From: Scenedesmus sp. ARA3
Taxonomy: Eukaryota; Chlorophyta; Chlorophyceae; Sphaeropleales; Scenedesmaceae
Length of the DNA stretch: 64,000 nt
NCBI GenBank assembly: GCA_004335835.1
Contig: RWJK01001431.1
Coordinates: 1 to 64,000, forward strand
Reading direction: 5' to 3'
A program made the translations under genes and the position numbers. Below, piece after piece: positions 244 to 59,556 of the stretch. The notes below the pieces were generated by a model. The model was given only the letters and a program-made list of their open reading frames with translations, had not been told where the DNA came from and searched no databases. Numbering within the stretch: the first letter of the stretch is position 1; each line of letters begins with the position of its first letter.

Positions 244-712
244 GTGCCCACCCGCCTGGCTGTGCTGCAGCGGCTGTGGCCCATGATCGCGCTGCTGCAG
301 AGCCCCACTGACCGCCTCACAGCCTTTGCACACTCATGGAGAGCAGCGCTGGACCTGGCCATCAGCAGCGGCAGCAGTAACGGGAGCTCGCAAGGTGCGG
401 CGCTGGGGCAGCGGCACAGTGTGCTGCGCTGCGGTGTTCTGCAGCCTGTCGCTGTGCTGCAGGCGCTTGCCGTTTGTCTGCCTGCTGGACATTCTGTGAA
501 CATGTTTTGTTGGGTGCTGGCTTAGGCGTCTTTCATTGTGCACCATGTCATGTTGTCATGTTCTGTGTTGCTGCTGCAGGGCAGCCGGAGGGCGCCGCTG
601 CTACGCTGTCAGCCATCCTGTCAGACATGTCGGTCTGCCAGGCATACTGCACTGTCGAATGTAGGATGCTGCCTCAAGCATTCAATAATCAGCACCATGT
701 CACAAGTCACCC

Positions 713-756
<44 letters not shown>

Positions 757-2496
757 AGGGCAGCCGGAGGGCGCAGCCGCCACACTGTCAGCCATCCTGT
801 CAGACCCCTTCCTGGCTGACGTCATCTCTGAGCGTCCAGCAGCAGCAGCAGCAGCAGCAGCTGCAGCCACCAGCGGCAGCGGCAGCGGCGCGCCGCCCGA
901 CAGCATCGACGCTGCAGCAGCAGCAGCAGCAGGTCCCACTGGCGGCAGCACTGTGAGCTCTGCTGCTGGGGGTGTGAGTGCTGCTGAGGTGATGGGCATT
1001 GGGGGCGCAGCAGCGGGGCCGACAGGCGGAAGTGACAGGGAGCGCATCGTGCTGTCAGGTGAGCGCTCAGCTGTATGCCAAAACCCTTAATCTCAACTTT
1101 AGATCCCTGGAGCTGCGCATTGTGCTGTCAGGTGGGTTGGGTTGCGTGGATGTGTGTTGTTTGCCTGGCAGATGCACCAGGTGCTTGACAATGACGGTGC
1201 ACTGGCTGGCTGGCAGTTGGGTGCGTGGCGCTGCTGCTGCTGCTGAAGCCTTCTTGCTGCAGTGCACGCTTAAGCACAGCAGCAAATGCAGTACATGCCT
1301 CTTAATTTTACTGAATTGGTTGTTGGCTATGTTTGCTGTGATCAGCGCAGCAGCAGCATCACTCCCCCTCCCCCACTTCAACACGTGGCTGTCTGCGGTA
1401 TGCTGTCTTGCCTCGTGTGTACGCTGTGCTGCCTGCCGCAGTCTCCTTCAGCGGCAGCAGCAGCAGCGGCCGCGAGCTCAAGCTCACATGCTACGTTCAC
1501 ATGGCTGCTGTGCGCCACTGTATGCTGCGTGTGCATGCGCAGGCTCCTTCAGCGGCAGCAGCAGCAGCCGCAAGCTCAAGCTCATGAAGTCGGCCAAGGG
1601 CATGCTCAGCAGCGGAGCTGCGCTGGCCAGCAACATGGGCGGCGCGATTGCAACAGCAGCCACGACAGGCCTCGCCGCTATACCCCTGCCAAAGTGGATG
1701 GAGGGGCCGGCTCCTGCGCGGTGAGAACGATGTACAGCACACTCAACTTGGGGACATGTTGGCTTCTGGCCTGCATCACGGCCACTGCTGCGCGTACAGT
1801 GTGCATGTTTTTTTTGCGCTGGCCAGCAACATGGGGGCGGGGGGGGCGATTGCAACAGCAGCCACGACAGGCCTGGCCGCAATCCCACTGCCCAAGTGGA
1901 TGGAGGGGCCAGCACCCGCCAGGTAGGAGCAATGTAGGCGTGCTGTGATGTGCTGTGCTATGGTGTGGTCCTGATCAACGTTTGATGCTGCGTGTTGCTG
2001 TGCGCGTGTCCTTGCATTTTGTGTTGGGTTGGTGCTGCTGCTGTGCATGCAACCACAGTTTCCAGCAGCTAGCTGGAACAGCTGCCACGACAGGCCTGGC
2101 CCCCATACCCCTGCCCAAGTGGATGGAGGGGCCGGCGCCCGCCAGGTAGGAGCAATGTGCTAGAATTTGCTGTGCTGCAGGGTTGTCGACTGTGGTGACA
2201 ATGCGTCGACAGTGTATTGATGATGGCATCCTCCTGCTTGAAATATATGGAAGGCATTGCTCCTGCCAGGTGGGAACAGTGCAAAAATATCCTGACAACT
2301 GCATGCAGTCATTCACTTTGCAATGCTGCCCTGTCCTGTGCTGCCTCTGCTGCTGCTGCTGCTGCCCCCCCCAGGGCCCAGCTGCCCGCCACACTGAAGC
2401 AGGAGCTGGTGTGCACGCTGCTGGAGGTGCTGCAGCAGCACCCAGCAGCAGACGCAGCACTGAAGCTGCCGCTGGGCAAGCCGGTGCCGCAGCCGG

Positions 2497-2537
<41 letters not shown>

Positions 2538-3335
2538 GCTGCGGCTGCTACAGCCTCATCGAACGGCCAGATGCAGCAGCAGCAGGATGCGTCTGCTGCA
2601 GCTGATGCAGCAGCAGATGTGCCAGTGTCACCTGCCAGTACTACTGACGGCAACCCAGCAGCAGCCGCTGCGGCAGCCATGGCAGCAGCAGCAGCAGCAG
2701 CGGGCACCTCCCCTGCCTCCCCATCTTCCGCCACACCAGCAGCAGCAGCAACAATACCCGCACCACCACCCAACCCTATACGGCCGCAGTTTGGTCTTGA
2801 GGATGTCTCAGTGTCACCCGTAGTGGCGTCACTACAAGCGCAAGTCGTCACTTGGCTGGGTGCCGCAGTCACTGCGCTGCAGCACAGCCGCGCCTGCCTT
2901 CACTGGGAGCCCCTGGTGCCCCCTCCTATGCCCGGCAACCCGCCCGCGCCGCCGCTGCCGTCGCTGGCGAGTGTGAACTTGACCACGGTGCCTGTTGACG
3001 CGTGGCTGACGCTGCTGCAAGCGGCGTGCCAGGCGGTGCGGGGCGTGCTGCGGCTGCACGGCTACGACAGCCTCAAGGCCATCTACAGGTGAGAGCGTGT
3101 TTGTGGGGCAACCTGGGGCAGGCAGAACACATGTGGGGCATGCAAGCAGGCTACGATAGCTATGACAGCTGACAGCTATGACAGCTATGACAGCCTCAAG
3201 GCCATCTACAGGTGGGGGCTGCTGCTGCTGCTGCTGCTGTGTTGGTTTCCGAAACTACCGCTCTCTGTGCCGTTGGTGCTGTTTGCTGGCCTTGTTGTGG
3301 TGGGGAAGGGGCCTGTGCCAAGCCACCACTCGTGA

Positions 3336-3375
<40 letters not shown>

Positions 3376-6300
3376 ACACTGCGAGACTATGACTTGTCTC
3401 GACGTGTGTTCTGCAGACTTACACAGTCTACTGCAGGCACACGACGCTGCCCAGATTTTCGTGTGTCCTCCCTGCTGTGTGCTGATGCTGCATGCCGTGT
3501 AACAATAACGCCCGCCCGCTGCCGCGCGCCTACGCAGGGCCAACGGCGGCCGCATGCTGCCGCAGCTCAGCCCCTGGGACGCCTCCGGCAGCCTCGCCCG
3601 CACCGCTGAATCCGCAGCAGCAGCGCTGCAGCAGCTGCTGGCCCGCGAGCTCGCCGAGTGGCGGGGGCTTGCGCATGCAGTGCGGCCTCGCGTGCTGTGG
3701 GTTGCCGCGCATTATTTGGAGCTGCCTAATCTGTTTGATGAGAGCTGGGGGCTGCTGCTTGCCTGGCTGGAGGATGCACTGCTGAGGAGTGTCAAGGCGG
3801 AAGGGGATGCAAGGTGTAGGCAGCTGGCGGCGAGTGCACGGGATGGGCTGCTGCTGAAGAAGTGGGCCATGCCGCAGCTGGTGAGGCATAGCAAGTCATG
3901 TTGTTGCATCTGCATGTTGATCATTTTATATTCCTTTGACCGCTTGGCACATGTGCTGATACATATGAAGGGACACTCTGCGTCTTTCAATCAGAATATT
4001 ATGAGGTCACAGGTGTGCTGTTGATTGGTGTCTGTTGTTGCGGGGTGCGGGCTTGGGGTGTGGTTGGCAGGGGGCTGTGAGCCGGGGGCCTGCTGCTGAA
4101 GAAGTGGGCCGTGCCGCAGCTGGTGAGCCTGGCTGGTGATATTTCAGCGTCACATCAGGATTGGTGCCGGGGGGGCATTTATAAGAGGCCCTTGCTCTGT
4201 GCAGCCACCGTCTTAAGGTGGCGCACGTGTGTAGGCGTCCTGCATGGCAGCTGTGTAGCAGCTGCTGGTCCTCGCTGCACAGTCAGGCTGCAGCACAACG
4301 CACAGCCAGCAATGCATGTTCCAATTCTCTTCCGCTGCTGCTGCTGCTGCTGCTGCTGCCGCCACCCTGCAGTCCAACCTGGGGCGCGACAAGTCTGGCG
4401 CGCAGACCACGTTTGACGCGGCGGCAGCCTCCGCGCTGGTGGAGATGCCCGAGTACCGCAGCGACGGCCTACAGGTGAGCGGGGTGCAAGCTTAGTTATG
4501 TCTGCAGGTTCTGATGGCCTGCAGGTGGGCAGCAGGGTAGGGGGTTCTGGTGGTGGGCTTGTAGACATGCCCAAGTACCGCAGCGATTGCCTGCAGCTGC
4601 GCCGGGGCGTGGGTGGGGGGTTGGCTTTCTTAGAGGGTGTGGGCCCCACAAAGGCTTGTGGGCCATGACTCGGCACTGGTAGAGATGCGCGAGTACTGCA
4701 GCGATGGCCTGCAGGTGGGCAGAGGTACTGGCTGCATGCCATCATGGGTGGTGGGCGAGGGATGAGGTGGTGCTGGGGGTGGGAGGCTGTTGATAGTCGA
4801 TGCAAGTGGTGGGTGGAGATGCCAGAGTACCGCAGCGACGGACTGCAGGCGGGGAGATGCATTGTTGACTGGAACACCAATGTTTTGATGTTTTCATTGT
4901 TCTGCAGTTGCGTGGGTGGGCTGGACAGCCATCCAGGGTGGCCACTGATTGGTGTGTGCCGCCAGTGTGTTATGAGCAGAGCCAGCGCACAAACGCAGCA
5001 GACTGCCTATGTGGCTTGACAGTGCTGCGGAATCAACATGTTTCTACCACTGCCTGTTACTGCACACACGCCTGGCGCCAAACCACTGCGCCCGCTGCTG
5101 CTGCTGGCTGCAGGTGGGGCTGACAGTGCTGCAGTATCTGGCCTGGGTGGTGCAGGCCAGCTGCGCAGCAAGCGCAGCAGCAGCAGCAGCAGCAGTGCAG
5201 AGCAGCAGCACTGCAGCCAATGGCGCTGCTGCTGCGGCTGCTGCTGCTGGCCCTGCTGAGGCTGTGCTGGCTCGCAAGCTGCTTGAGCTCGTGAAGGCTG
5301 TGGGGGCGCAAGACGCCGCGGGTGAGTGGGGTTGGTGTATGTTTTTGTGGTTGCTGCTGCTGCTGCTGCTGTTGGTACCTGTTTTGTTTGGAATGGCTGG
5401 GGGTGAGGCTGTGCTTGAGCTGGTCAAGGCTTTGGGGCCACAAGACGCAGCGGGTGAGCGGGGAAGGACTGCATGCTGGGTGGCCTTGTTTTCAAATGGC
5501 TGCTGCTGCTGCTGCTGCTATTATGTTTCTTGCTATGAAAAACTTTTGTGCCCTTTCAGCTGCCCAGCAGTCTGCACGTGCTGGTTCCTCTGCGCACCTG
5601 GCACTGTCTGCTAATGCTGATGCTTGCGTTTCCATACATCATTCACCTGCTGTTGCAGGCGTCGACACTCGAGAGTGGTGCAAGCGCATGGTACGTATGC
5701 TGTCAGCAGCAGCAGACCCAGCAGCAGCAGCAGCAGCAGCCGGCTCAGGTGTGGCAGCAGCACACGCAGGCGGCCCTGCCTTTGCTATGGCACCACCCCC
5801 ACCTAGCAGCGGCCCAGGAGCAGCCAAGGCAGCGCTGCCATCAGGGTATAACGCAGTGGCAGGGTTCAGCGCATTAGGGTTTGGCGGCGGTGACAGCAGT
5901 GACGATGAGGATGAGGGGCCAGCAGGGCTTAGCAGGGAGGAGCGGCTTAAGCGGAGGCTAGGGCTTAGCAAAAGCGGCGGCGGCGGCGGTTCAGGGCGCA
6001 GGAGAGGCGGCGGCAACCGCCGCACAGCAGACTCCTCGAGTGATGATGACAATAATGATGCTGAGTCATCCAGCAGCAGCAGCAGCAGTGATGAGTCCTC
6101 CAAGAGTGGTGGCAGCAGCGGCAGCGATGCTGCTGCAGGCGGCTCGTCCGACAGTGACACCGGTGGCCCTGCGCTGCACAACCCCCTCAGCGGGCTGCAG
6201 CTCGGCGGTCAAACTAACAATGCAGACGGTCAAACTAACGCTTTGACCGGTGGCGGCATTGCTGGCAAGGAGCGGCGCGCGCAGCGGCGGGCGGCCAAGG

Positions 6301-7370
6301 CAGCAAAGAAGGCCCGCAAGGCCCGTGCGGCAGTCGCAACATTCGCTGTTGGCGCGCCAGATGTAGCGAGCGGCGTTTGGGGTTATCCGTTTGGCGGCCC
6401 GCGCAGCGCGACGCTGTTCATCAGCCGCCGCAGCCGCCGGCATAGACTTTTCAAATGGCAGCTGGCCATGGCACTGGCTAATGTGGCAGAGGAGGACAGC
6501 CGCGCTGCAGGAGCAGCAGCAGGTGCTGGAGGACTTGCTGCTGCTGGCAGCGGCAGCAGCAGCGGCAGCAGCAGGCGCAATGCGCAGCTGGGTGGACTAT
6601 TTGGTGCTGGCGGCAGCGGAGGTTCAGGTTTCAGCGGGCTCAGCGGTTCAGCGGCAGGCTCTGTCGGCACTACCATGGCAGTTGCAGGGCTCACTGACGC
6701 CACTGGGCCGGTGTTTAGTGCCGAGTCAGGGTTTAGGCTGGACCAGGCAGGGTTTTGGGACAGCCTGCCAGGTGGTGCCAGTGGCTGGCAGGAGCTGAGT
6801 GGCCCCAATGATCCGCTGGTGCTTGCTGGGCGCTACAGTGCTGCTGCGGGTGCTGGCAGCGCTGCTGGGGAGATCAGTGTCGTGCTGCGCGCCTTCAACA
6901 GGTGCGGTGGTGGCGCATTGTTATAGGAGGCTGTGGTGTTGTGGCTTGCGTTTTGGCCTACCTGCTGCGCCTACTGCCACCAAAGCCTCTGCAGCTGTAC
7001 ACAGCCTGAAGCCGCTGAGCAAGTCCTGACATTTTTTTCTCGCAGTCACAGGAAGGAGAGGGTAGCATCTGCAGATCACTGCACCATGCCTGGAGGCAAG
7101 TGCCCTCAACCTCCCCTGCGCGCTCATGCTCACCCCCTGCTGCTGCTGCTGCTGCCGCTGCTGCGTCAGGCTGCCTGGAGGGCGTGGAGGTGGCGGTGCG
7201 CCTGGTGGGCCAGACACATGCACATACTCACTAGCGCTGCTGCTGCTGCCGCTGCTGCCGCTGCTGCTGCTGCTGTTGCTGCGCCAGGCTGCCTGGAGGG
7301 CGTGGAGGTGGCGGTGCGCCTGGTGGGCCAGACACATGCACATACTCACTAGCGCTGCTGCTGCCGCCGC

Positions 7371-7403
<33 letters not shown>

Positions 7404-10273
7404 GTCAGGCTGCCTGGAGGGCGTGGAGGTGGCGGTGCGCCTAGTGGGCCGCACACATGCGCATACTCACACATTATTGCTGCTGCTGATGATGCTGATG
7501 CTGATGCTGTTGCTGCTGCCGCTGATGCTGCTGCCGCCGCTGCTGCTGCTGCTGCTGCTGCTGCGTCTGCTGCTGCTGCTGCGTCAGGCTGCCTGTTGAC
7601 CTGGAGGGTGTGGAGGTGGCGGTGCGCCTGGTGGGCCCAGCGCGTGCTGAGCGGCGTGAGGCCAGCTGGATGCTGCCACGACTGCTGCCCACAGAGGCGG
7701 CACAGCACAGCTTCAAGTTGCTGCCCACGGGGTGAGCGGGGCTGATGTTTTGTAGTTTGATTCCTGCGCTTCTGCTGCTGCTGATGCCCAAGCTGCTGCC
7801 CACGGAGGCGCACAGCTTCAAGCTGCTGCCCACGGGGTGAGTGGGGTCGGCGTGCTGCTGGTGATGGTGGCGGTGGTGGTGGTGGTTGGGTAGTTGCTGT
7901 CATTGAGGGTGGGCAGCACAGCTTCAAGCTGCTGCCCACGGGGTGAGCGGGGGTGACATCCTTCTGTTGCTGTTGCTAGTGCTATAATAAGATGTGCTGC
8001 AGCACCAAACTCCTGTCGTCTCTGGGGCGGCTCGCCGGGCTGCAGCCAGCCAAGCCCCCTCACCTCAGCTGAGCCACCTCACCCCACCTGACATGCTGCA
8101 TCTGTGTGCCGCTGCGTGTGGCTGCGTGCCGCAGCTACGGCCGCCTGGAGGTGCATGCGCGGCTGCTGCTGCCCGTGCCGCAGCTCGCTTCAGAGGCTGC
8201 GTCTGCGCCTGCCCTGGCCTGCCAGCCGCTGTCCATCAGCATGGCACACCTGCTGTCACCGCCCGCCTGCCCGCCAGCCAGCGCACAGGACATGTTGGCG
8301 CTGTGGGCCAGCCTGCCGGTGCAGGTGCGGATTGTGCAGCGTGTGTGTTTGGTGTGGCGCTGTGCGGCAATGCTGCAGCAAACAAGGTGGCATGTTTGCT
8401 TGTTTGCATGCTGTGTGTTTTGTTTGCAACAATGCAGCGCTGGAACCTTGGTACGTTACGAGCTGTCAAGCGCTGCTGCCTTCCTAGGACATGTTGACTC
8501 TGTGGGCCAGCCTGCCGGTGCAGGTGCGTTGGTGCAACCTCTGCATATGATATTGTGTGTGTAGCGCGGGTGTGGCATGTGTGCTTGCTAGCAAGTGGCT
8601 GTTTGTTTTTGGGTTGGAACAGAGGTCAATATATGACTTTTGAGCTGTCACCACCCGCCTGCCCGCCAGCCAGTGCTCAGGACATGTTTGGCGCTGTGGG
8701 CCAGCCTGCCGGTGCAGGTGCGGTGGTGCGGCCTCTGAATATGAGGTTGTGTGTGTTGCGCGGGTGTGGCATGTGTGCTTGCGAGGAAGTGGCGGTTTGT
8801 TTTTTGGTTGGAACAGAGGTCGATGCATGAAATTTGAGCTGCGAATCAAGTGCCGCCTGCCCGCCAGCCAGTGCTCAGGTCATGCTGGCACTGTGGGCCA
8901 TCCTGCCGGTGCAGGTGCGGTGGTGCGGGCCCTGCATATGAGGTTGTGTGTGTAGTGCGGGTGCGGCAATGCTTGCAGCAGTGTGGCATGTGTGCTTGCT
9001 GGCATGTGGCGGTTTGTTTTGCAGTTGCAACAGTAGTAGATGTATGAAGTTTGAGCTGCCATGTAAGTGCCGCCCGCCTGCCCGCCAGCCAGTGCTCAGG
9101 ACAAGTTGGCGCTGTGGGCCAGCTGCCGGTGCAGGTGCGGGTTGTGCAGCGTGTGTGGTTGTGCAGCATGGGCTTTTGCGCGGCATTTGTGTCTCTGTGC
9201 GGCCTCTGCATCATGTGTGATTGTGTGGTGCTGCGCGGCAATGCTGCAGCAATATGGCATGTTTACTTGCTGAGGATGCGGTGCTGTGTTCTGCAACAAA
9301 AGCAGAGGTGGCGCCTTGCATCTCAGCTGCCAGAGCATTGCATCCCCAGCTGCACATGCCACACCTCTCCACGAGTCTGGTGCATCCTGCTGCCCTGCTG
9401 CTTGCTCACCAGCTGCCAGGTGGAGCGGTCTGGCATTGCTATGCATGCCCAGCTGCATATGCCAGACCTCTCTAGATGGTGCATCACACTGCCTTGACTG
9501 CTCGACCCACCATGCATCACTCTGCCCTGCTTCTTTGCCCCTACCCCCTCCTGCCAGGTGGAGCTGTCTGGCACTGCTGTGTGGCCGGGCCTTGACGGGT
9601 TGCTGCTGCTGCTGTCAGCACTGGCGCGCCAGCCGCTGCACTGCGCCTGGGCACACATGCTGCCCGTGGTGTGTGGCGCACAGGCCGCCTTTGTGGCCTG
9701 CCCCACCACACACACAGCAGACACGCTGGCAATCATGGTGGTGGCTCAGCTCATGCCAGAGCCTGCTGCTGCAGCAGATGGGGCAGCTGCTGCAGATGCA
9801 GCTACGGCTGCTCATGATGCAGCCAAGGAGGATGGCCAGCAGCAGCAGCAAGATGGGCAGCAGAAGCAGCAGCAGGCCGGCGAGCAGCAGCAGCAGCAGC
9901 AGCAGCTGCGTGGTGCGGTGCAGCTGGTGGTGCGTGCCAGCAGCCATGAGGTGCTGCTGGCCATACAGCAGCAGCCGGAGGCGTGGCTGAGAGACATCAG
10001 CCAGGTGGGGGGGTAGCAGCTGCGTTAAGTCAACACCAGAATGCTGACAGCAAACCTGGTGGCGGGCTTCCTGTGGTGCTCGGTCATGCAGACAGTTGCT
10101 CTGTCCTCATGTGTATGTTGCAGCCTTGGGTGAGTGCTTGGCACGCAGGTAGTGATCATGGGGTCAAGTGGGGGGGTGGGGGGGAATACGGGGAGCCAGG
10201 CAGGCTGTTGCAGAGTGCGCAGGCTGAGGTGGCAAGAACAACCTGCTCTGTTTGAAACCTTTGCGCCTCATGC

Positions 10274-10305
<32 letters not shown>

Positions 10306-18806: not shown

Positions 18807-18969
18807 NNNNNNNNNNNNNNNNNNNNNNNNNNNNNNNNNNNNNNNNNNNNNNNNNNNNNNNNNNNNNNNNNNNNNNNNNNNNNNNNNNNNNNNNNNNNNN
18901 NNNNNNNNNNNNNNNNNNNNNNNNNNNNNNNNNNNNNNNNNNNNNNNNNNNNNNNNNNNNNNNNNNNNN

Positions 18970-29377: not shown

Positions 29378-29870
29378 AGCTGAACGTTTGAGCCGACACA
29401 AAGCGCTTGCCAGCAGAAGTGATCACGAGAGCTGTCGAGTGCGACGTGACACAGCAGTAACCAGTGGCGGCAAGTGCCTTAGGGCGCACGTAAGCAACAC
29501 ATGCAAGAAAGAAAATTATGCAGTAAGCAGTCGACGGCTCGCTGGCATGGTGAAGGTCACTGCAATTGGCTGATACTTGCACCCCAGGTCCCGTCATGTT
29601 ATACTTGCCTCTCCTAGTACACGCCATCTGCTGCTCAAACAAGTGTTTCCCAAACACAAGTACGGCTCGCTGTGCTCGCACCCCCGAAAGTTTGTTTCGA
29701 TGCTTTGCGGGAAGTCTTGGCAGCACAATGAACGCAGCAATATTGCAGCTGTGCAGCGTGTAAGGGTGCAGGTCAGGTTTTGCGCTCGCTGGGCTTTTGC
29801 CTGAGGGAGGTTTCAATCCTCAAAGTATTGTATTGGTAGCGCTGCTGTTACTGCACCCTCCTTCACCCCT
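29378..29870. other. Upstream region of the F-box/JmjC gene
   Basis: No coding sequence or clear TATA element seen. Presumed promoter and leader of the minus-strand gene. Confidence 0.4.
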
Positions 29871-29873
29871 TCG

Positions 29874-43336: not shown

Positions 43337-44732
43337 ATGATGCACCCATTGAACAGCAAGCTTTTGTGCAAGCAGCATCCCGTTGCCTCTGTCCCTCGCA
43401 GCCATGTAGCTAGGCCAGCAGCAGCAAGCAGACGAGGTACGCATGCACCAGCAGCAATGGTGTAGGTGCAGCGGCAATGTAATTCGCTACTCCATCGTCA
43501 TCATGTTCCTGATGCGGCTTGCCAGCTGTGCCAGCTCCATGCAGTGTTCCTGCTGCAGCTGCAGTCCCTGACTCTATTGCCTGACACATGCCCACACACA
43601 AACATGTGCCCTGCAGTCATTGCCAGGACAGCAGACGTGCCGCTGCACCACCCCCACCACGATAGTCTGGGCAGCGCTGATGCTGGTGATGAGAGCAGGT
43701 GCCCCTTCCTGCAAGCGCTGCGCACCCCACCCATGGTGAACATGCCGTGGCTGCAGCGCGTCAAGTACCAGGTGCGACCCAGCAGCCCAGCTCAGCACGG
43801 CATAGCACAGTTTGCCCTTAGCTGTTTACTGTATGTTGGCGGATTTTTGCTGTTACTGGGACAGCATGCGCAGCAGCACTTGCGGCCCAGTAGTCCAGCT
43901 CAGCTCAGCACAGCACGTTCAACACAAACAACGTGTTGTGCTGTTCAGTCTGAATGATGGCTTAGCTCTGCTTGTCATTGGGATAGCATGCGCAGCTACC
44001 ACGACAAAGTCAGCCTGGTTCAAGCATGTCGCTCAGTCTGAAGGGCGCCAGCATCACTGAGCAGGAGCAGCAGCAGCAGCAGCATTCGCGGGCTGGGAAG
44101 CTACGCCTTCATTCGTGGTTGCTCGTTGCCTGTACACTCTGCAAAATGCATTGTGTTAGCAGCTGCGGCCTACTCAAGCCCACACTCACCACACTCTTCA
44201 CACCTGCCTCTTGTGCCCGTGCCCGCAGGTGTTTGCGCCAGCGCAGTACCAGGCTCAGGTGCTCAAGGGCCGCGGCGAGCACACCATCGTGCAGGTGGGC
44301 CGGCAGCAGCAGGCAGCAGCTGCAGCAGGCTCAGCACCCTCACCAGTGTGAGGGCTGCACGGCAGCTGAGTCAGCAAGCACATATCTCAGCAGGGCTGGC
44401 AGGCACTCATTTGTTTCAATCGATACATCAACATCATCAGACGTGCAGCTATTTCAGTCAGTAACATTTCACTCGACACATGTCTGTTGGCGCAACTGCA
44501 GGGCCCGCGCCAGCCCGGCGTTCACAGCTTCATGCCACGTGTGCGACACATGCTCGTCAAATCACCAAACAATTTCTGTTGCGCCACCGCAGGGCCTGCG
44601 CCAGCCCGGCTTCAACAGCTTCTTCATGCCCGCCACCGGGGAGCTGGCCAAGGCCGTGTTTGCTGAGGAGCCGGGCGGCACCATCACGCAGGGCCTGGCG
44701 GAGAAGGGCGGCTTCAGGGCCTTTGGTGAGGC

Positions 44733-44771
<39 letters not shown>

Positions 44772-45013
44772 GTTTGAGCCTCTGTGCAAGCTGCTGTGCT
44801 GTTGGCATGGCTGCATATGGCTGCTCGACTCCTGTAGGGATGCTGCAATTCTCTGTCTGTGCTCCCAGCATGTGTGCTTGGACGTCCAAAGCTGTCACAA
44901 GACGAGGCTGGCATTAGCACCGTCAGCAGTTGAACAGCTGTGCTGTGTGCTGGCACCATGCTCTGCAGGCACGCTGCTGGGTGAGGACAGCTTGCTGGTG
45001 GTGAAGGACGCCA

Positions 45014-45062
<49 letters not shown>

Positions 45063-45162
45063 GTTCATGACCAAACTGAGGGACTGTGCTGTGCGCTGTA
45101 ACCTGCCGCAGGCACGCTGCTGGGTGAGGACAGCTTGCTGGTGGTGAAGGACCCCGCACGCT

Positions 45163-45208
<46 letters not shown>

Positions 45209-45229
45209 TGCTGGTGGTGAAGGACCCCA

Positions 45230-45278
<49 letters not shown>

Positions 45279-48200
45279 GTTCATCACCAAACTGAGGGGC
45301 TGTGCTGTGCGCTGTAACCTGCTGCAGGCACGCTGCTGGGTGAGGACAGCCTGCTGGTGGTGAAGGACCCCGCACGCCACGCCTACCTGCGCGCACTGCT
45401 GCAGCCCGCGTTCGGCCCAGACGCCATCGCCTCCTACCTGCCTGACATTGAGGTGCGGCCAGCCCTACGGCGCTGCTGCCAGCGTGGCATGTGTGCTGTA
45501 GTGTGCGCTTTGCTTGTTCCATGCCTGAAGTTGACACCCCTGAAGTGCGCTATATGCCTCTCTTTGCCTGACATTGAGGTGCGGCTAGCTTGGGCCACCG
45601 TGGCAAGCCCTGGCACAAGGCATGGCGCGTTGCGGGCAGGCTTGCAGGCAGTTGCGGTCGGCTTGTTGTGCTCGCTGTCGGTGCCTGGTGGCATGACGGC
45701 TGCGCCGTGTGGCTGAACAGATTTGCATGCACACAGCAGAGTGTGGTGCACCTGAGCTGAGGCCCTCATGTTGTGCTGCTGCTGCTGCTGCCTGTGTGAC
45801 TGTGTGGTCTGCAGGCGCTGGTGTCGCGCCACCTGGCGACCTGGCAGGCGTCAGGGCAGGCGGGCGTCAAGGCTTATGGTGCGCTGAAGATGCTCACCTT
45901 TGACTTCATCCTGCAGGTGAGCGCTCGGCTAGGCCAGGGAGTGTGGCGGCAGGATTGTGTGCAGGCATGGGGCTTCAGTGGGGAGCTCGGCAAGCATGCT
46001 GCGCAGCGGTAGTGCGGCACCTTGTGTTTGCCATGTCACGAAGCAGGCAGGCAGGTGGTGGCCACAAGCAGGACGTGCTGGTGAATCTCTGCTGCATCAA
46101 TAGGCATGAGCTGTTGCCATGTGCCGTCCTCATGGCACCAAGCATAGCCTGTTGCTGCAAAGGGTAGTTTGTCAGCCGTGTATCTCTCTGATTAACCTCT
46201 GCTGCCTCACTGCCTGCTGCCTGCTGCCTGCTGTGCTGCAGATTGTGATGGGGCGCTCCATTCCCGAGCAGCAGCTGCAGCACCTGGGCGGCCTCTTCTC
46301 CAGCCTGACTGCGGGGCTGGTGGCGTGGCCATACATCGACATCCCCTTCACGCCCTGGCACAAGTGAGGGGGTGGCCTGGCTGTAGCCTGCATCAGGTTT
46401 TGCAATCGTGCAAGGACATGTAGCACTTCAGGCAGCTAACATTTTTTAGCTGTGCACTGTTCTATGGGGTACGGGGCGTGCAAAATTTACAGGAGCTCTG
46501 CTGCTGCTGCTGCTGCTGCTGCTGCAGGGCGCTGGCGGCTCGTGAGGAGCTGTGCGGCTTCTTCCTGGCGGGCTGCGCGCAGGCCAGGGAGGCGCTGGCC
46601 GCGGGGCAGGCTGTGCCGGGCATCTTGGGGCGGCTGGTGGCGGCTGTGGACGAGCAGGGCAACAGGTGGGGCAGACGTGGGGTGTGTGGCTTCATATCAT
46701 CATCATGTCATCATCATGTCATCATCAGATGTGTTAGTGATAGTGATACACATGTTACAGTGCTGGCTTGATACCGGGCATATGCCACCCGCGTGGCAGC
46801 TGTCTCGTCATGTTGATCTGGTTCACAGCTCTTGGTGTGCGGTTGAACAGTTGCTCTGGTGTATGCAGTGTTGCTTCTTAACGCACTTGCTGCTGCTGCT
46901 GCTGCCGCTGCTGCGTCAGGCTGACGGACCAGGAGATCACGCACAACCTGCTGCTGGTGCTGCTGGCGGGCCACGACACCTCCAGCACCACGCTCACGCG
47001 CGCACTGGCCAACCTGCAGGTGCGTGTGCAGTGCGGGGAGGTGTGGGGTGCTGTGTCCGTGGTTGCAGCATGTAGGGGGCAACATGTGCCGCCAGGCAGT
47101 GCGGCATCAAGGAGGAACTTGCTTACCTGTGCGATTTTACAGCACGGGGTGTGCACGGCTGACGCGGAGCAGCAGCTTACAATTGTCCATGTGGCTATTT
47201 GTAGCTTGATTTCGCAAATGCATGTTTCGTGTGCCCGCTGTGTTGCTGCTGCTACTGCCACAGGACCACCCGCGCGTGCTGCAGCGGCTGCGGCAGGAGC
47301 AGCAGCAGGTGGTGGCACGGCATGGCAGGCGCATCAGCAGCGATGCACTGAAGGACATGCGCTACGCTGACGCTGTCGTGCGGTGAGCGGCGATGGTGCA
47401 GCACGTGCGTGGCGGTATCGTGTCAGGGCAGCTGCAGCAGCATTATGGCGCTGTGTGTGGCCTGGCAACATTTTTCATCGCGCCGTCAATGGTATGTGGC
47501 ATAGCTGTTGTGGAAAGCTTCCTTTTGCGTGATCGCTGATGGAATTCCTGTTTGCTGATGCTGTTTGCTGATGCAGGGAGACGCTGCGCCGCGACCCTGT
47601 GGTGGGTGCGGTCATCCGAGTGGCCACGCGTGACTTTGTGCTGGGGGGCTACGGCGTGCCCGCAGGCACCAACGTGCTGCTGCCGCTGCGCACGCTGGCG
47701 GAGACCGATCCGCGCTGGCTGCACAGCACAGGTGAGGGGGCGTGGTGATTGGGGTGCGGCCACAACCCAGCAACAAGAGCTGCTGTATTGTTCACACAGC
47801 TGACACTGAACACTTCCACAGCTGTGTGGTTTCATGGGCGGGGTTCATGGGCGGTTTAATGAATGCTGCTGTTGCTGAGCATGGCTCTGAATGCCTGCTG
47901 CTGCTGCTGCTGCTGGCGCCAGGTGACATGGCCCCTGCCGCGTTCAACCCTGACCGCATGATGACCCCTGAGGGAGCCAAGCCTGGGCAGCTGATGCCCT
48001 TTGGAGGGGGCGCACGGTGAGTGACCGGCTGCGCTGCATGTTGCGAGCTGTCATTGCCACTGCCTGCAAGCTGCAAGGCCGGCTGGGAATTGATCGTGCT
48101 TGCAGCATCATGTCTGCAACTCGCCTGCATTTTGTGTGACGCGCTAGACTCAGTTGGCTAGACACTCTCGCGGTAGGCTCCCTTTCCACCAAGCTCTACC

Positions 48201-51569: not shown

Positions 51570-51612
<43 letters not shown>

Positions 51613-51866
51613 GCCCCCTTGCAGTACCTGTGTGCGGCCATCCTGGACCCTGAGACGCTGTGGCAGCGCTCCACCAGCGAGGGCGCCCCGCTCTTCCCCG
51701 AGCGCCTCAAGCAGCTGGGCATCATGCCAGGTGCGGGGAGGCCTGAGTCAGGCTGCTGTGAGATGGTTATGAAACTTATTGGCAGTGGATACAGGGTGTT
51801 GTTCATACATCGCCTCATGCAGCTGGGCGTCCTGCTAGGTGTGCGTGAACAACAAGCAACCTGGGC

Positions 51867-51898
<32 letters not shown>

Positions 51899-53106
51899 GT
51901 GCTGCAGGCGTGAAGCCCCACCTGAAGGTGTACAACCTGCCTGGGCAGCGCGGCTCAACACACATGCAGGTGACCGCAACAGCAGCAGCTGATGCGCGCT
52001 AGGTTTTTCATCCGCTGCTCCGCAAGCAGCAAACACGTGTGGCACTAAGACTGCCAGCTGCAGCACCATGCGAGCTGGCAGCTGGTCAACTCACAGATAG
52101 TCACCTCTCGCAGATATCTGGCGTTTTTTTGTTATGTGCCAGCAGCTGAGTTCTGCAGTCCCCGCATATCAGGCACAACTGTTCGTGAACATGTAACCTT
52201 TGCCACCCATGCTGTACGTGCCTTCCTCCATGTAGAGCTGTACGCATCACGTGGCGCCGCACCGCTCACACAGGCGCCAGCTTCATACCCACTGCGCACC
52301 TGCTGCTGTGCAACTTGCTGCTGCAGGGCCTGGACTCCCTGGCAGCCTGCAGGAGTACAAGGACGCCGGGGCCGTGTTTGCAAAGTGCCAATCACGCCCA
52401 ATGCTTAACAGCCTGCTGCTGTGCTGCAATGCATGCACAGGGCCCGGATTCTCTGGCAGCGCGGCTGCAGGAGTACAAGGATGCCGGGGCCGTGTTTGCC
52501 AAGTGGCGCAGCCGCTGACTGACACCGGTGTAACTTTCCTGTTAATCCATCCTGCCGCAGGGCCTGGACTCCCTGGCAGCCCGCCTGCAGGAGTACAAGG
52601 ACGCCGGGGCTGTGTTTGCCAAGTGGCGCAGCCCGATGGCCATTGATGAGGCCAACGGCCAGCCCAGCGACTTTGTGATTGAGGCCAACATGCTGGACCT
52701 GGCCCGCTACGCGCTCATCTGCCAGGTGGGTTAGGTTTTATGAGTTGCAGTTGAGGGGGTAATGTTTACGGGTGTGATCGAGGCCAACATGCTGGACCTG
52801 GCCCGCTACGCCCTCATCTGCCAGGTGGGCCGGCATGCTGGTCTGAGGCGGAGAGTTTGTGGATTGCTGGAATTGTGGTTTGGGTTTAGGGTTCAGGACC
52901 AACACCCATATGCTAGAGTTGGCGGGGTATGCACTCATCTGGCAGGTGAGGTGTTGACAGCATAACTGACACACACTTCATACGTGATAAACCTGGCGTG
53001 CTACGCACTTGTCTGCCTGGTGTGCAAGTCTGCAGGGCTGGCAGCGTGACGTCAGCTTGTAGCTGTTCATGGAGGCCATCGCAACTGGCCAAACCTTGTT
53101 CTGAAT

Positions 53107-53146
<40 letters not shown>

Positions 53147-54991
53147 GCAGGACGTGGGCTTGGTGCCCATTGTGGAGCCAGACGTGTCCATGGCTGGCAC
53201 ACACACCCTGGAGTCAGCGCTGGCCATCAACACGAAGATCCAGAGCGTGCTGTACAGGGCACTGCTGGAGCACGGCGTGTTTATGGAGGGAGTCATCCTC
53301 AAGAGCAACATCGTCAACCCAGGCAGGCAGTGCCCCGTGCCCTACAGGTGCGAAGACAGCAGCCGTGGTTGGAAGCAATATTCATGTTTTGATTTAGCCG
53401 CTCATGCCTGCTAACAATACCTGAGGCCAGGCGAAGCCAGTGCGGCCAGCCGCTTGTATCAGCTTGCCTCAAAAACAGTCTCACGCCGCTGCAACGGCAC
53501 ATGATGTGCTGTTTGACTGCAGTAACTATGATTAGCCGCCGCCAGGCAGCACACACAGCACCCCTGCCTTGCCGCCACACCAGCCTCAGCCTGCGGTCCA
53601 TGTGCAAACACCTTTGCGCTGTGTGCCCATGCAGCGCAGACGAGATTACGCACACCAACGTGGACCTGTTCCACTGCTGTGCAAGTAGTCAGTGCCCCCA
53701 CAACAGCACCTTGTCCTGTACATGCACATGCCTGCAGCGTGGATGAGATCGCGCAGGCCAACGTGGACCTGTTCCACTGCAGCGCAACGGTTTCCTGCCA
53801 CACCCGTGCCCCCTACTAATGTATTGCATGTGTTTTGTGCCCATGCAGCGTGGACAAAATTGCGCAGGCCAACGTGGACCTGTTTCATTTCCTTGCCATC
53901 TGCTGACTTTACCATACCCATGTTGTGACGTTTTACACCGTGCCCTCTGCAGTGTGGATGAGATCGCGCAGGCCAACGTGGACCTGTTCCACTGCAGCGA
54001 ATTGATTCCCTGCCACACCTGTGCCCCTGTTTCATGTATTGCATGCGTTTTGTGCCCATGCAGCGTGGACAAGATCGCACAGGCCAACATGGACCTGTTC
54101 TGGGCATCTGCTGTCATGTATGCCTCTGCCTTATGCTGACCTGTATCTCACTGCTGTTTGCTGACTGTACTGTATCCGTGCTGTGCCGTATACGCATGTG
54201 CAGCGTGGACGAGATCGCTCAGGCCAACGTGGACCTGTTCAAGCGCGTGATGCCGATCGCGGTACGCTCCGCCAACTTCCTCAGCGGCGGCCAGTCGCTG
54301 GCTGACGCGGCTGCGCGGCTGAGCGTGATGAACCAGAAGAAGGGCAACCTGCCTGTCAACCTGTCCTTCAGCTGGAGTGCGGCGCTGCAGGTGTGTGGTG
54401 CTGAGGCGTGCACAATGGCTGGCTGTTCACGGTGATCAGCCGTTGCAGCTGTTGCGTACGGTGTGACAGGGGAGCAGGCTGGCTGCTGGTTGGCTGGCAA
54501 ATTTAGCTGCGGCTGATGAGGAATCTTGGGCTGCAAGCCTGGGCCATGATTTGTGCTCAGCAGCAGGAGTCAAGGTGATCGTGTTGAAACAGAAGAACGG
54601 GAACCTGCCGGTCAACCTGTCCTTCTCATGGAGTGCGGCGCTTCAGGTGTGCAGCGCGCTGCCTGTTGAGTGTATCATTGCAGCCGATTGTCTCTGTGAT
54701 GGGGGTAGCAAGCTGTGCAGCTGCAGGAGAAGATGGGCGACTCGCGAGTTGGCATATTCGGCATGATGGACTTGCGGCTGGTGCGAGCAGGCTGTAGCTT
54801 TGCGGTGTACGCAGTGTGTTGTGCTGGCAGGCGCTGCCTATGACACCAGGTGAGTACAGCCGGTGAGTACGGCAGCCGTATGACAGCTGCATGCGGCTGA
54901 TACTGAATGCATGCTGCCTGCTCTGGACCTTGACACACGGCTGTTCTTGTTGCGGCAATTTGTGCTGACCTGCTGCCTACCACGCACCGCT

Positions 54992-55026
<35 letters not shown>

Positions 55027-55553
55027 GCAGATGCCGCAGATGCCGCTGTTTGCGCTGTGCCAGGGCGGGCTCAAGCTTCCTGAGATGGAGGCGCTGTACT
55101 TGCAGGAGTTCTCAAACATGCTGCTACTGCCGCTGCCGCTGCTGCTGCTGCTGCTGCTGCTGCCTCAGATGCCGCTGTTTGCGCTGTGCCAGGGCGGCCT
55201 GAAGCTCCCCGAGATGGAGGCGATGTACCTGCAGAGCTGATGTTGCTGACATGCTGCTGCTGCTGCTGCCGCAGATGCCGCTGTTTGCGCTGTGCCAGGG
55301 CGGCCTGAAGCTCCCCGAGATGGAGGCGCTGTACCTGCAGGAGTGCTCAAACATGCTGCTGCTGCTGCTGCTGCTGCCGGTGCTGCTGCTGCTGCTGCCG
55401 CAGATGCCGCTGTTTGCGCTGTGCCAGGGTGGCCTGAAGCTGCCTGAGATGGAGGCGCTGTACCTGCAGGAGCTGGCTGTGGCGTCAGCAGCAGCCAAGG
55501 GCGAGTACAAGCCCAAGGCGGGAGAGGGAGACCACAAGCCGCCCAAGCAGTGA
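50229..55553 (+). CDS. FBA: Class I fructose-bisphosphate aldolase, plastid-targeted
   Basis: Nine exons: 50229-50261, 50693-50929, 51312-51362, 51625-51730, 51908-51969, 52561-52725, 53151-53347, 54204-54390, 55404-55553; 395 residues with exact phases. The enzyme interconverts fructose-1,6-bisphosphate and triose phosphates in the Calvin cycle and glycolysis. The leader (MQMQAKPFGAQ, then RTSRARSVRVTASAS) is a classic plastid transit peptide. Family motifs appear in order: GKGITACDEGPGTIG with the active-site Asp, ENRRAYRQMLF, FAKWRSP, LVPIVEPDVSMAG, EGVILKSNIVNPG with the Schiff-base Lys, FLSGGQS and NLSFSWSAALQ. The C-terminal exon (MPLFALCQGGLKLPEMEALY) diverges from the usual KTWQG tail and ends GEGDHKPPKQ. 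Almost every intron in the second half contains duplicated exon edges; the correct copies were chosen by frame and completeness. Confidence 0.9.
52320..52515 (+). repeat. Two decoys of aldolase exon 52561 acceptor side
   Basis: CAGGGCCTGGACTCCCTGGCAGCC at 52326 and CAGGGCCCGGATTCTCTGGCAGCGC at 52439 copy the real exon start at 52561, extending to GTGTTTGCAAAGTG and GTGTTTGCCAAGTGGCGCAGCC respectively, at ~115-120 bp spacing. Confidence 0.88.
52765..53030 (+). repeat. Three decoys of aldolase exon 52561-52725 donor end
   Basis: Copies of the segment encoding NMLDLARYALICQ plus a GTGGG/GTGAG donor end near 52825 (nearly perfect), 52946 (HMLELAGYALIWQ) and 53020 (NLACYALVCL). Similarity falls with distance from the exon. 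Confidence 0.85.
53630..54203 (+). repeat. Five decoys of aldolase exon 54204 acceptor side
   Basis: The real exon begins GCAG, CGTGGACGAGATCGCTCAGG and encodes SVDEIAQANVDLF. Copies with their own CATGCAG- or CTGCAG-type acceptors start near 53637, 53740, 53850, 53954 and 54064 at ~100-110 bp spacing, most keeping QANVDLF. Homology stops just after the Phe codon in each. Confidence 0.9.
54575..54655 (+). repeat. Decoy of aldolase exon 54204-54390 donor end
   Basis: Sequence encoding KNGNLPVNLSFSWSAALQ followed by GTGTGCAG repeats the true exon end (KKGNLPVNLSFSWSAALQ, GTGTGTGG) about 260 bp into the intron. Confidence 0.88.
55028..55403 (+). repeat. Three decoys of aldolase exon 55404 acceptor side
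   Basis: CTGCCGCAG or CTGCCTCAG followed by ATGCCGCTGTTTGCGCTGTGCC and on to codons for PEMEALYLQ appears near 55040, 55169 and 55274, each behind a (CTG)n tract, before the last and complete copy at 55404. Confidence 0.9.
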
Positions 55554-55633: not shown

Positions 55634-56708
55634 GCGCGGAGGTGAAGGATCCTGGGCAACAGGTGAAAGCACGCTGCGCACGTCCTTTTACATGCTTGCC
55701 TCATGGCCACGGCACGGAGTACAGTTGTTGGAGGCGTGTTCCATGGCATCTTGCTGCGGCACAATGTAACAGAGTTGATCGAGTTGCTTGTGGGCTGCTG
55801 ACAGCCTGCATGACCACCTGGTGCTTGCTGAGTTGAATAATATACTATCACACGTGCATCCTGGGCTCCAAACATGGCGCCTGATAACCAGTGTGTCCCC
55901 CGCGACAGCAATCCAAAACAGTGACCTACATGCGCGCACCTGACTAATGCACAGATGACGACCAGATCCTCTAGAGGCAGTCCCCGGGCAGTATATAGTA
56001 TATACTGCAGTCACAGTAGGCGTCACGCGGAGGCTCCACACAGTGGCAGGAGACGCAGTAGTGCACCCCAAGACCAGGACCAATCAGACCAATAAGACCA
56101 ATTGGCTGACACTACGTGTGGCAGTGCGATTAATGCTGCGTCCTTGAGCACTATGGCATGCGCGTTCGGACAGGTACACATCACGCCGCAGCTGACTGCC
56201 ATGTGCAGGTCTGGATCTAAATATCGGCACTGCTGGGCAGTGTCTGCCGTTGCTACATGGTGCGTGCAACCTGCCATCATCAGACAGTCACCATACAAGC
56301 CAAAGCAACATCTCCGTGCACCACGCAGTACATACATTGATGTTGTGGCGTCTGCTGCACGGTCAGCACACTGCAGGCACCGTGAGAAAGTTCTCAGCAG
56401 CAACGCAAAGGCTTGAACGACTTGTTAACGTTGACGTTGAACGTCTCCTAGTGAGAAAAAAGTCTCCTAGTAAACAATCACATGCTCATTTGGCATCTTG
56501 GCAGGCCGTAAAAGATCAGTTGGCATCGTGCTGCAGTGTGGCATGTCAAGTGCTTGCGCATTGGCGGGTACACAAGACCACAACAACCTTCTGAACAACA
56601 CAAGTGCAATAGTACAGCAATCTTGTAGTCACCCTATTGATGTCCCTTATACAACTGCAACAAATAATGTCAAAAGGTCCTCGCTGTTGTGCTACACCAC
56701 AACAGCCC
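55634..56708. other. Convergent intergenic region
   Basis: No gene seen between the 3' ends of the aldolase (+) and ankyrin (-) genes. Contains a palindromic GCAGTATATAGTATATACTGC at about 55989-56009. A TTACA (TGTAA on minus) lies at 55688-55692. Confidence 0.45.
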
Positions 56709-59556
56709 TCAGCCGCCGGCCTGACTGCTTAGCAGCCTGCTGCTGTTGCTGCTGCTGCTGCTGTGGCGGCTTNNNNNNNNNNNNNNNNNNNNNNNNNNNN
56801 NNNNNNNNNNNNNNNNNNNNNNNNNNNNNNNNNNNNNNNNNGAGCCACTCTTGAAGTCTGGCAGCACTGCCTGCAGCTGCGCCTCACTACACGCCCCAAT
56901 CTTCACACACTTCTGCGCACTCTGAGGCGTCAAGAAGAAGCTTGTCATCGGGCGCTCCTTACCGAAGGGCAGCAGCTTTGCGCCCGCATCCAACAGCGCC
57001 TGCATTGTGCCGTTCGTGGAGTCTGGCCCAGTGCCGTCATTTGTGCTGCGGCGGAAGTCGCAGTACGCAGCTCTGGTAAGAGGCGTCTGCGGGTCGTTGC
57101 GCTGCTTGTCATCCGCCGCATAGTACACGGCATTGGGGTCAGCGCCGCCCTTGAGCAGCGCCCTCACCAGCCGAGTGAGCCCATGGAAAGCAGCCTTGTG
57201 CAGCAGCGTGTAGCCACTTCCCGGGTACACATCAAGCCTCACATTGGCACCCTTACTGACAAGGAACTCGGCAACGTCAGGCCCGACCTGCGGCCAGCAC
57301 CAAAAGTCTGTCTTGCTGCAGCCCATACCAGCTTGCAGCGGTGTGAGGCCTTTGTCATTCTTGCTGTTCACATCGATTTTGCCAGATGACATGATAGCTT
57401 TGACCGCTGTCAGGTTGTCCGCAGCAACGGCCACGTGCAGCGGGTAGGCGCGCGCATAGCGCTGCTTTTCTGCGGTCTCTTTGCGGCTGGCAAGCTCAGA
57501 TTTGAGGTAATCATCTGCAGACTTGCAGGCATAGCTCTTGCCACGCTTGAACCTGCAGCAGCAACAGCAACAGGGATCAGCAGGGATGAAGCACACAGCA
57601 ACAATGGTGGTGGCACCATCCCACTTCAAAACCACCCCTCTTCTCCAACCCCCAACTAGTATGCAGTGCAGACGCAGCGCGGCAAATATCTGTGCTGACA
57701 GATACTAACAACCGTTGCAGTGTCGGGTGAGGATAGCATAACATGACACCAGCGGCAGCACCCACCAGTCAGCCAGCTCCCGCTTTGTGTTAGGGTCAGC
57801 TTCCGGGTCCAGCAACAATGCTGCCAGAAGCGCCCCCAATAGCTGCGTCACTGCTGCGCTCACATACACACGATCAGCCAAGTAACTGGCAGCACCCACC
57901 AGTCAGCCAGCTCCGGATTCGTGTTAGGGTTAGCTGCCTTGGCCTCCTGGGCCTCCCACAGCGGCCGCCAGTAGCCAATGTTGAAGCCCTCAGGGAACTT
58001 AGCACCACCCTCCCAGCTGGCATCAAAGATGCGCTGCACCTCTGCTGCGCTGCAGGCGCCCAGCTTGTTGCAGCGTGACAGCGGGTGGGGTTTGGGGTAG
58101 GCCAGGGCACTGGGTGGGGTGGCAGATGGGCCAAAGGGAAGGGGGTCCGCGCCTGCAGGAGACATACATGGCATCATGACAGCAACCAGTTGCTCACACT
58201 GCGCTGCAGTATACTGCGTTGCAGCACGTATTATGGGATCCATAGTATTGTGTTGCTTCCATTGTGAACGTCTGCAGCATGGCATTGCAGATGATCGGTT
58301 GCCATGCACAAGGGTGCTGCCTGCCCTGCTTAACAGAAATCAGAACCCATCCTGCTGCGCTATGTGTACAGCACCCGCCCACTGCCTCGCACCTGCACCC
58401 AGCAGCCTCTCAACGCTGAAGCCTGGGTAGCCGTACTCGGTGTTGTTCTTGCCAGCCGCCACACACAGCGCCGCCCAGGTCAGCGGCGTCACCGTGCGGC
58501 CATCAGGCAGGCGATAGCGGGCGTTGGCATCAGTGCCACCTGCCAGCAAGTACTGCGCAACAGCAGCGGCAGCAGCATGTGGTGCACATCAGTGTTTGCA
58601 CGTAGTGGAGTGAGCAGCAGGACTGTATATGCGAGCAGCCGAGCCGCAGTCATGGTGAGCAGACATGGCTTAAACGCTTGATGGTGCTGGCAGCACATGA
58701 TGCAGCCTATGCTGGCAGCAGCGCTGTTGCAGTTGTGTGGTCAATTGCTTCCGCAGCACAGCAACACACGCATGTCATATCTACAAGCTGCCTCCATCAT
58801 TGCTGCTGCTGCTGCCTCCATCATTGCTGCTGCCGCCTCCATTGCTGCTGCTGCTTCTGCTGCTCACATAGAGGTCGTTGGCGCCGCTGCAAGCCGCCAG
58901 GTGCACCAGCTTGTAGCCGGGGCGCTCCTTGGGGAACACGTCAACGTTCACATCAGCGCCGGCACAGATGAGGCTAGCAGAGATGCCATCTGCGGTGCCT
59001 GTGGCGCAGAACTGCAGCTCTCCATTGGGCACCATGCGGGGGAAGCGGCCTGTGTAGTTGCCTGCAGGGAGGGGCACAACAGCGCAACATGACTTGAGTT
59101 GTGGCTGCACACATACATTGTTGCCTCTGCAGCATCCTGCCGGTAAATACACCTTCCAGCACCCCACTTTTGCGCCGCCAGCTGGCACACATCCTGCTAT
59201 GATGTGAGCTGTGGCATAATGGCTGGTGCTGCTTCTCAAGCCTTTGACATGCAGCACATGAATGAATAATTTGTGTAACAGCGGCTTTTTGAGATGCTTC
59301 CTGGTTTTTAGACTACAGGGAACTGCAGGAGACCGCAGGAGAACTTACTGCATGTCGCCAGTGCAGCAGCCAGCGGGGTCCTGCCACTGGCATCCAGCCC
59401 GTTGACGTCATGCTTGCGGCTGTCCAGCAGCTGCTGCAGCAGCACGATGTCCTGGTTGACCGCAGCATCATGCAGGGGGCTGCTGTGGCTGGGTGTGCAG
59501 GCCAGCAGCAGCAGCAAGGCCACTGGCAGCAGCAGGGCTCTGCCGGGCACTGGCAT
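56709..59556 (-). CDS. Secreted ankyrin-repeat protein
   Basis: Five exons (minus): 59349-59556, 58868-59061, 58393-58552, 57900-58152, 56709-57552; phases consistent. ATG 59556 starts a signal peptide (MPVPGRALLLPVALLLLLAC). Ankyrin units follow: SPLHDAAVNQDIVLLQQLLD with VNGLDASGRTPLAAAL, then ADVNVDVFPKERPGYKLVHL, TDANARYRLPDGRTVTPLTW, YPLHVAVAADNLTAVKAIM with VNSKNDKGLTPLQ, and YTLLHKAAFHGLTRLVRALL with GGADPNAVYY. Between units are Cys-containing linkers with a repeated CNKLGACSAAEVQ / CVKIGACSEAQLQ motif, which may be a second, interleaved repeat. Ankyrin repeats normally bind proteins in the cytosol, so a signal peptide is unusual. A 69-base N gap (56773-56841) interrupts the last exon; the frame of the final ~20 residues and the stop therefore remain uncertain. 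Confidence 0.75.
56773..56841. other. Assembly gap (69 N) in the last ankyrin exon
   Basis: Run of Ns beside a CTG-rich segment. If its length is only an estimate, the terminal codons could be read as a poly-Gln tail (KPPQQQQ) instead of the Ser-rich tail used in the model. Confidence 0.95.
57760..57822 (-). repeat. Decoy of ankyrin exon 57900-58152 donor end
   Basis: Minus-strand GACCCTAACACAAAGCGGGAGCTGGCTGACTG with GTGGGTGCTGCC repeats the real end AACCCTAACACGAATCCGGAGCTGGCTGACTG with GTGGGTGCTGCC, about 130 bp into the intron. Confidence 0.85.

Follow-up and report, generated by a model that had tools for sequence, protein, structure and literature searches.

Introns in a minority of sampled loci of a scenedesmacean green alga contain direct copies of the adjoining exon edges

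Genes and edge copies in the window

The window, by which we mean the whole 64,000-nucleotide stretch analysed here, lies on contig C1058 of a Scenedesmus sp. ARA3 genome of 87.27 Mb in 1567 contigs. It encodes an aldolase and an F-box/JmjC protein, each 99% identical to a protein of Tetradesmus obliquus (OEZ85_013406 and OEZ85_013410, respectively, which share a contig of 6,027,792 bases), and judging from these matches the source alga is T. obliquus or a close relative. A first-pass annotation had named further genes in the window. Its P450 and ankyrin assignments were confirmed by Pfam (a P450 domain at 47578-47730 and an ankyrin match in 56868-57551), as its aldolase and F-box/JmjC assignments were by proteins, while the names TPLATE and MYND found no support, the submitted exons of these genes being without a match.

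Exon edges were predicted with a simple HMM gene finder (intron minimum 60 bp) trained on the window and the fetched loci (223 kb). Homologous proteins confirmed the edges of two genes, P0001 those of aldolase and P0122 those of F-box/JmjC. Compared with the protein-confirmed aldolase edges, most HMM edges of that gene were placed correctly, and intronic copies of edges, hereafter decoys, were sometimes called exons. Copies were counted per locus with 50-bp edge queries (Smith-Waterman score of at least 42, within 600 bp) and, for the side control, with 60-bp edge queries (score of at least 40, within 600 bp).

Copies accompany 6 of the 14 edges of the seven aldolase introns and 4 of 18 edges in the F-box/JmjC gene, one of the latter being weak (30 bp, 83%, under the cut-off; Table 1). 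The five copies before the aldolase exon start at 54204 take the form gcag/CGTGGACGAGATCGC.CAGGCCAACGTGGACCTGTT (window self-comparison and reading of 50.6-55.8 kb), and protein P0001 contains this segment once, from the outermost copy. P0001 likewise holds the outermost copy once for the arrays before 52561 and the last exon and for the donors 51730, 52725 and 54390. The proposal that the outermost copy is kept as exon is thus borne out by the aldolase and JmjC proteins, which hold that copy alone, with the exception of one public isoform model, P0121. By gene models, 22 of the 146 edges in the window have an intron-side copy, 8 a far-side copy and none an inverted one; a second method gives 29 edges with copies. 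These figures agree with the earlier estimate of more than twenty boundaries, and the one to five copies described per boundary correspond to the window counts, as in the five before 54204.

Table 1. Edge copies in the window, with real edges where given
Feature	Position	Strand	Basis or identity
Aldolase acceptor array, five copies (near 53630, 53733, 53844, 53948, 54060), then real edge 54204	53627..54240	+	P0001 confirms real edge
Aldolase, two acceptor-edge copies upstream of exon start 52561	52299..52633	+	self-comparison, P0001
Aldolase donor edge (exon end 52725) and copy 52773-52829	52674..53020	+	96%
Aldolase, two weaker donor copies near 52897-52946 and 52985-53020		+	by eye, weak tblastn matches
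Aldolase donor edge (exon end 51730) and copy 51811-51841	51703..51841	+	87% over 31 bp
Aldolase donor edge (exon end 54390) and copy 54576-54651	54320..54651	+	87% over 76 bp
Aldolase, three acceptor-edge copies, each preceded by a (CTG)n tract, then last exon (start 55404)	54994..55475	+	P0001
JmjC acceptor-edge array, edge 25653, period ~122 bp	25588..26152	-	P0122 confirms edge
JmjC short copy of acceptor edge 25148	25238..25268	-	30 bp, 83%
JmjC donor edge 28717 and copy 28608-28665	28608..28766	-	86%
First gene, densest stretch, 15 edges listed with copies; some real and decoy labels may be swapped	566..9581	+	model edges alone
First-gene copies, including 566-626, 1619-1734, 2074-2158, 3181-3214, 4087-4127, 4557-4849, 7137-7329, 7914-7956, 8486-9150		+	
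Edge copies in stretch preceding P450-matching exon	44480..45589	+	
Donor edge copy beside ankyrin-repeat exon	57754..57938	-	90% over 51 bp

Orientation, side and spread of the copies

When the window and the sampled contigs are pooled, 67 of 490 predicted exon edges show a direct copy on their intron side at a distance of up to 310 bp, and 15 of 478 show one on the far side of the exon; inverted copies were found at none of the 490 edges within 310 bp and in no distance bin to 3 kb. Direct intron-side copies were present at 21/475 edges at 250-560 bp, 5/458 at 500-810 bp and 1/445 at 750-1060 bp, with none from there out to 3 kb. In the side control, 36 of 217 donors had copies on the intron side, 9 on the wrong side and 1 in an unrelated flank; the corresponding numbers for 222 acceptors were 29, 11 and 2, so that an excess over chance is seen at both kinds of edge. 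Windows placed in intron interiors gave matches in 93/1549 (right) and 84/1549 (left) cases, many of them the decoys themselves, and the frequencies were 15/486 and 18/486 for exon interiors and 4/133 and 5/133 for intergenic windows. We conclude that junction-anchored edge copies in introns are real, that they are direct and regularly spaced and that, as first described, they lie on the intron side of their own edge and are present on both strands.

Two assembly gaps, at L021 4523-4676 between identical 52-bp flanks and at window 18807-18969 inside a (GCA)n tract, are likely assembly effects. It could be argued from the first of these, from the decoys that the self-trained HMM calls exons, and from the resemblance by eye of L021 to a leucine-rich-repeat gene, by which some L021 pairs may be ordinary exon repeats, that the copies are an artefact of assembly or gene models. 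However, the copies diverge by 0-25%, the edges of two genes match proteins from another assembly and inverted matches are absent, and we consider such an artefact extremely improbable.

The claim that most genes are affected did not hold. The 18 random loci contain 342 edges, of which 38 have a copy, and 30 of these 38 belong to three loci (L023, 16/27 edges; L014, 8/19; L021, 6/12; gene-model edges). The spread over the 18 loci is strongly uneven (chi2 125.6, df 17), with p-values that are optimistic because events in one gene are not independent. Four loci fetched later and annotated by the fixed model have copies at 2 of 80 edges, and within the window the first 8 kb stands out, with copies at 11 of its 23 edges versus 11 of 123 elsewhere. 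In this sample the copies are confined to a minority of loci. Aldolase (PF00274) occurs at five loci (C955, C459, C1301, C284 and C1058), in between two (C955) and six (C1301) matched pieces; by model edges, copies are present at 6/21 edges on C284 (L027), 1/7 on C459 (L025), 0/10 on C1301 (L026) and 0/4 on C955 (L024). Among the best candidates scored, there was no recent paralogue or allele with which aldolase, L023 or L021 could be compared.

Triplet tracts were considered as a trigger and rejected, (CTG/CAG)n being about equally frequent at edges with and without copies (donors, 9/43 vs 70/261, p 0.46; acceptors, 13/35 vs 86/280, p 0.44). Tracts of (CTG)n with at least four units, read in gene sense, precede 69 of 315 predicted acceptors by no more than 60 bp, and (CAG)n tracts 10 of 315; after donors the numbers are 15/304 and 12/304. 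The (CTG)n tracts are present in all fetched loci, in the window for example at 51571-51611, 51868-51905 and 53108-53145, and on the acceptor side may stand in for the pyrimidine tract.

Other repeats were also encountered. A 56-57 bp stretch at L021:1128-1183 has at least 39 other matches in the genome, at least 37 of them at 100%, and is a young short dispersed repeat. L023:2022-2102, 2179-2262 and 9106-9311 are short stretches with dozens of genome matches, in both orientations, and may be triplet-rich or a repeat family. Tandem arrays with units of 71-219 bp lie outside predicted exons at L019 1688-2194, L023 1-1020 and window 29851-30052.

Anatomy and origin of the copies

For the anatomy, 107 pairs of at most 130 bp, from 80 edges, were analysed. 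Their exon part measures 12-102 bp (median 44), the minimum being the cut-off. Of 53 donor pairs, 35 have an intron part of 3-18 bp and 11 have one of 19-60 bp; for the 54 acceptor pairs these numbers are 22 and 25. Donor copies ending before +3 are rare (4/53). For a mismatch profile, 58 of 157 copies were left out because the gene model calls them exon, which leaves 43 donor and 56 acceptor copies. Mismatch is 0.05-0.33 over the last 20 exon bases and 0.07-0.21 at +1 to +5; between +5 and +6 its mean jumps from 0.21 to 0.42 (donors) or 0.39 (acceptors), the same place at which the splice PWMs lose information, and by +16 it is about 0.55-0.7. Past the block ends, identity is 0.22-0.33 on both sides versus a background of 0.26, in each of three age classes (22, 27 and 39 pairs).

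Neighbouring copies follow one another at roughly 120 bp: of 157 distances, 108 are 91-159 bp and 46 are 170-276 bp, the rest being 73, 89 and 612 bp. The nearest copy was at least 91 bp off for all 88 edges, and one at 75 bp appeared in a later sample. Of 40 pairs from the same array, 23 have exon-side ends that agree to within 3 bp; between arrays the share is 9.8%. Plain tandem duplication followed by drift would leave spacers about as similar as edges. When the whole unit was compared, as for a minisatellite, 16 full-period tandem pairs roughly fitted this, with mismatches of 9.9% (edge) and 13.0% (spacer) and gaps of 7 per 1216 and 65 per 2867 sites, respectively. For most copies the spacers are unrelated even at 93-100% edge identity; in 57 adjacent pairs, mostly of this kind, the spacer mean is slightly above the other-loci null (-0.089 vs -0.132, sd 0.011). 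Decoy-decoy pairs likewise keep the edge better than the spacer, and two young spacers, searched genome-wide, matched only themselves.

The first-pass annotation had also offered a sober alternative, in which random tandem duplication occurs everywhere and is seen only where a junction shields it from selection. Intergenic and intron-only tandem arrays do exist, intron-only copies would fade faster because both sides drift, and assemblies may hide full tandem units of recent origin by collapsing them. Nevertheless, plain survivorship would yield many young intron-only copies, and among copies at least 90% identical there are 32 junction events and 2 intron-only events, with 19% expected at junctions if random; the ratio is 19:1 at 93% or above and 46:3 at 86% or above (18-21% expected), in a count that leaves out arrays longer than 130 bp, gap-flanking pairs and decoy-decoy pairs and in which events within a gene are not independent. 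Since young copies sit on junctions, plain survivorship fails, and the unrelated spacers beside edges at least 93% identical also speak against it. We therefore regard this alternative as unlikely.

Our best guess, held tentatively, is that local junction duplications are amplified and that their edge part is re-copied between the real edge and the decoys. The repeated short duplications straddling splice sites, as first proposed, are supported. Short direct duplications across an exon-intron junction would put extra edge copies into the adjacent intron of certain genes, and a founding duplication of ~90-150 bp would be amplified into an array, a step supported by the shared breakpoints, the common period and the full-period pairs. 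The outermost copy would stay in use and the inner copies would decay without selection. While the intron part of the unit would drift apart, the exon-edge part would stay recognisable because it is occasionally re-copied between the frozen real edge and the decoys, by gene conversion, template switching or unequal exchange. Similarity would then stop about where the splice consensus stops.

Re-copying accounts for the step at the consensus and for the shared breakpoints. Duplication followed by re-copying is also consistent with the local, exclusively direct placement of copies (none beyond ~1 kb), their spacing, the similar edge and spacer divergence of the full-period pairs, the better-kept edges of decoy-decoy pairs and the near-neutral third-position mismatches given below. 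On the other hand, no exchange event was seen directly, and the model would require frequent exchange over blocks of 30-80 bp. Past the block ends identity equals background at all ages, with no sign of an older, longer unit; spacers are on average barely above their null; and the acceptor step is, in single pairs, less sharp than that of donors.

Sharp ends are better accounted for by block copying, in which a 25-80 bp piece containing the splice junction is pasted in one step nearby in the intron, with no tandem stage. Both ends are sharp in all age classes, spacers are unrelated beside the most similar edges and the two young spacers have no second occurrence in the genome. Block copying leaves unaccounted for the rarity of donor copies that stop short of the splice site, the breakpoints common to decoys of one array and the same period in full-period tandem pairs. 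Templated insertions would be expected in both orientations, and none of the 490 edges has an inverted copy; we view block copying as possible but doubtful. Very unlikely, in our estimate, is copying coupled to splicing or transcription at exon-intron junctions of certain genes, with a segment ending near the consensus as template, always sense, pasted ~120 bp off in an intron of the same gene, perhaps via pre-mRNA or an R-loop. Neither re-copying nor block copying explains the minimum spacing of ~91 bp (exceptions 73, 89 and 75) or the choice of affected genes.

Decay of decoys and relation to intron gain

To follow decay, 155 rows were reduced to 70 real-decoy pairs, belonging to 55 edges, by dropping longer pairs and copies that the model calls exon. 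Third codon positions hold 161 of 332 mismatches, near the 0.47 expected for a neutral decoy set against an exon under purifying selection (computed from a synonymous fraction of 0.28); in the youngest pairs the count is 17/26. Of 43 decoy donors, 35 still have GT, and of 56 decoy acceptors, 44 still have AG; drift predicts similar values, and 58 of 157 copies called exon were dropped from this set. Given this neutral-like pattern and the GT/AG retention, the decoys look unselected. Location, orientation, the copy used in two genes and the pattern of decay are direct observations.

Decoys could instead be under selection if, for instance, they regulate splicing or serve as recursive splice sites or alternative exons. 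Their regular spacing with its near-minimum of ~91 bp, the GT...AG stretches formed by donor copies and the third-position mismatches of the youngest pairs would be in keeping with this, as would one of the OEZ85 JmjC models: P0122 is without a repeat, while P0121 takes in one copy in frame, with 36 additional residues made up of a 29-residue copy of an exon start and 7 others, which suggests that one copy may be spliced in (the isoform being an annotated model). In contrast, the mismatch pattern overall is that of neutral decay, so that upkeep as alternative exons failed its test, and in an alignment of the 120 JmjC homologues listed the other 119 have a single copy of this exon start. We thus find selection on the decoys distinctly unlikely. 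At the site of the P0121 repeat (edge 25148), the window has only its 30-bp, 83% copy, and copies therefore seem to turn over between close strains. The window decoy start HPPLETIT resembles the real OEZ85 start, and the window real start HHPLETIT resembles the OEZ85 decoy HHPLETIS; this swapped likeness, a matter of one residue, would fit exchange.

Intron creation by AGGT duplication, which had been invoked as context, did not find support here. The crossed pattern was absent from 263 introns, both as an upstream exon end at the intron 3' end (0/263) and as a downstream exon start at its 5' start (0/263), while same-edge copies were present in 15/263 and 16/263. Nor did the idea that introns grow in this way gain ground: median lengths are alike with and without copies (293 bp, n=49, vs 255 bp, n=179; p=0.66), as measured on gene models in which introns are broken up at decoys. 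The spacers gave no sign of a transposon source, 52 of 57 being without a match to another fetched locus and five having short matches of 26-50 bp; the test for introners or transposons, one sequence at many loci, thus failed. Relatives were sought in viral and prokaryote contigs, and none of these encodes one.

Minisatellites under concerted evolution form local direct arrays with shared breakpoints. The alga shares both features, but in most pairs similarity persists only in the exon-edge part of the unit. The names Rogers and Hellsten are reportedly tied to intron gain by tandem (AGGT) duplication. As described in PMC4974935 and PMC2891723, that process resembles ours in tandem duplication with splice signals and the passage of one copy into an intron, and differs in the crossed pattern, found in none of our 263 introns. 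In PMC4974935, a tandem duplication over an intron-exon boundary of a potato RdRp gene similarly copied the splice signals; that single case gave a new intron, whereas in the alga many edges have several copies each, with no crossed pattern and with similarity limited to the edge. Introner elements (PMC9860276) also add intron sequence in many genes, but among the 57 spacers compared in the alga no element is common to loci. Full-text searches of open-licence PMC turned up no title or abstract about junction-anchored copies in algae. Introns of T. obliquus are longer than those of three other Sphaeropleales (mean 462 vs 230-302 bp; PMC5966456); we claim no tie between this length and the copies.

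In summary, the edge copies are junction-anchored and apparently neutral. Should the anchoring hold throughout the genome, then in this lineage some genes would be adding intron sequence through a process linked to splice junctions, and neither random duplication nor transposons would be behind that gain. Decoys mislead gene prediction, as our HMM took some for exons and one public T. obliquus model (P0121) contains one. They would also constitute a natural test of the fidelity with which the spliceosome picks the outermost site where up to six are nearly identical.
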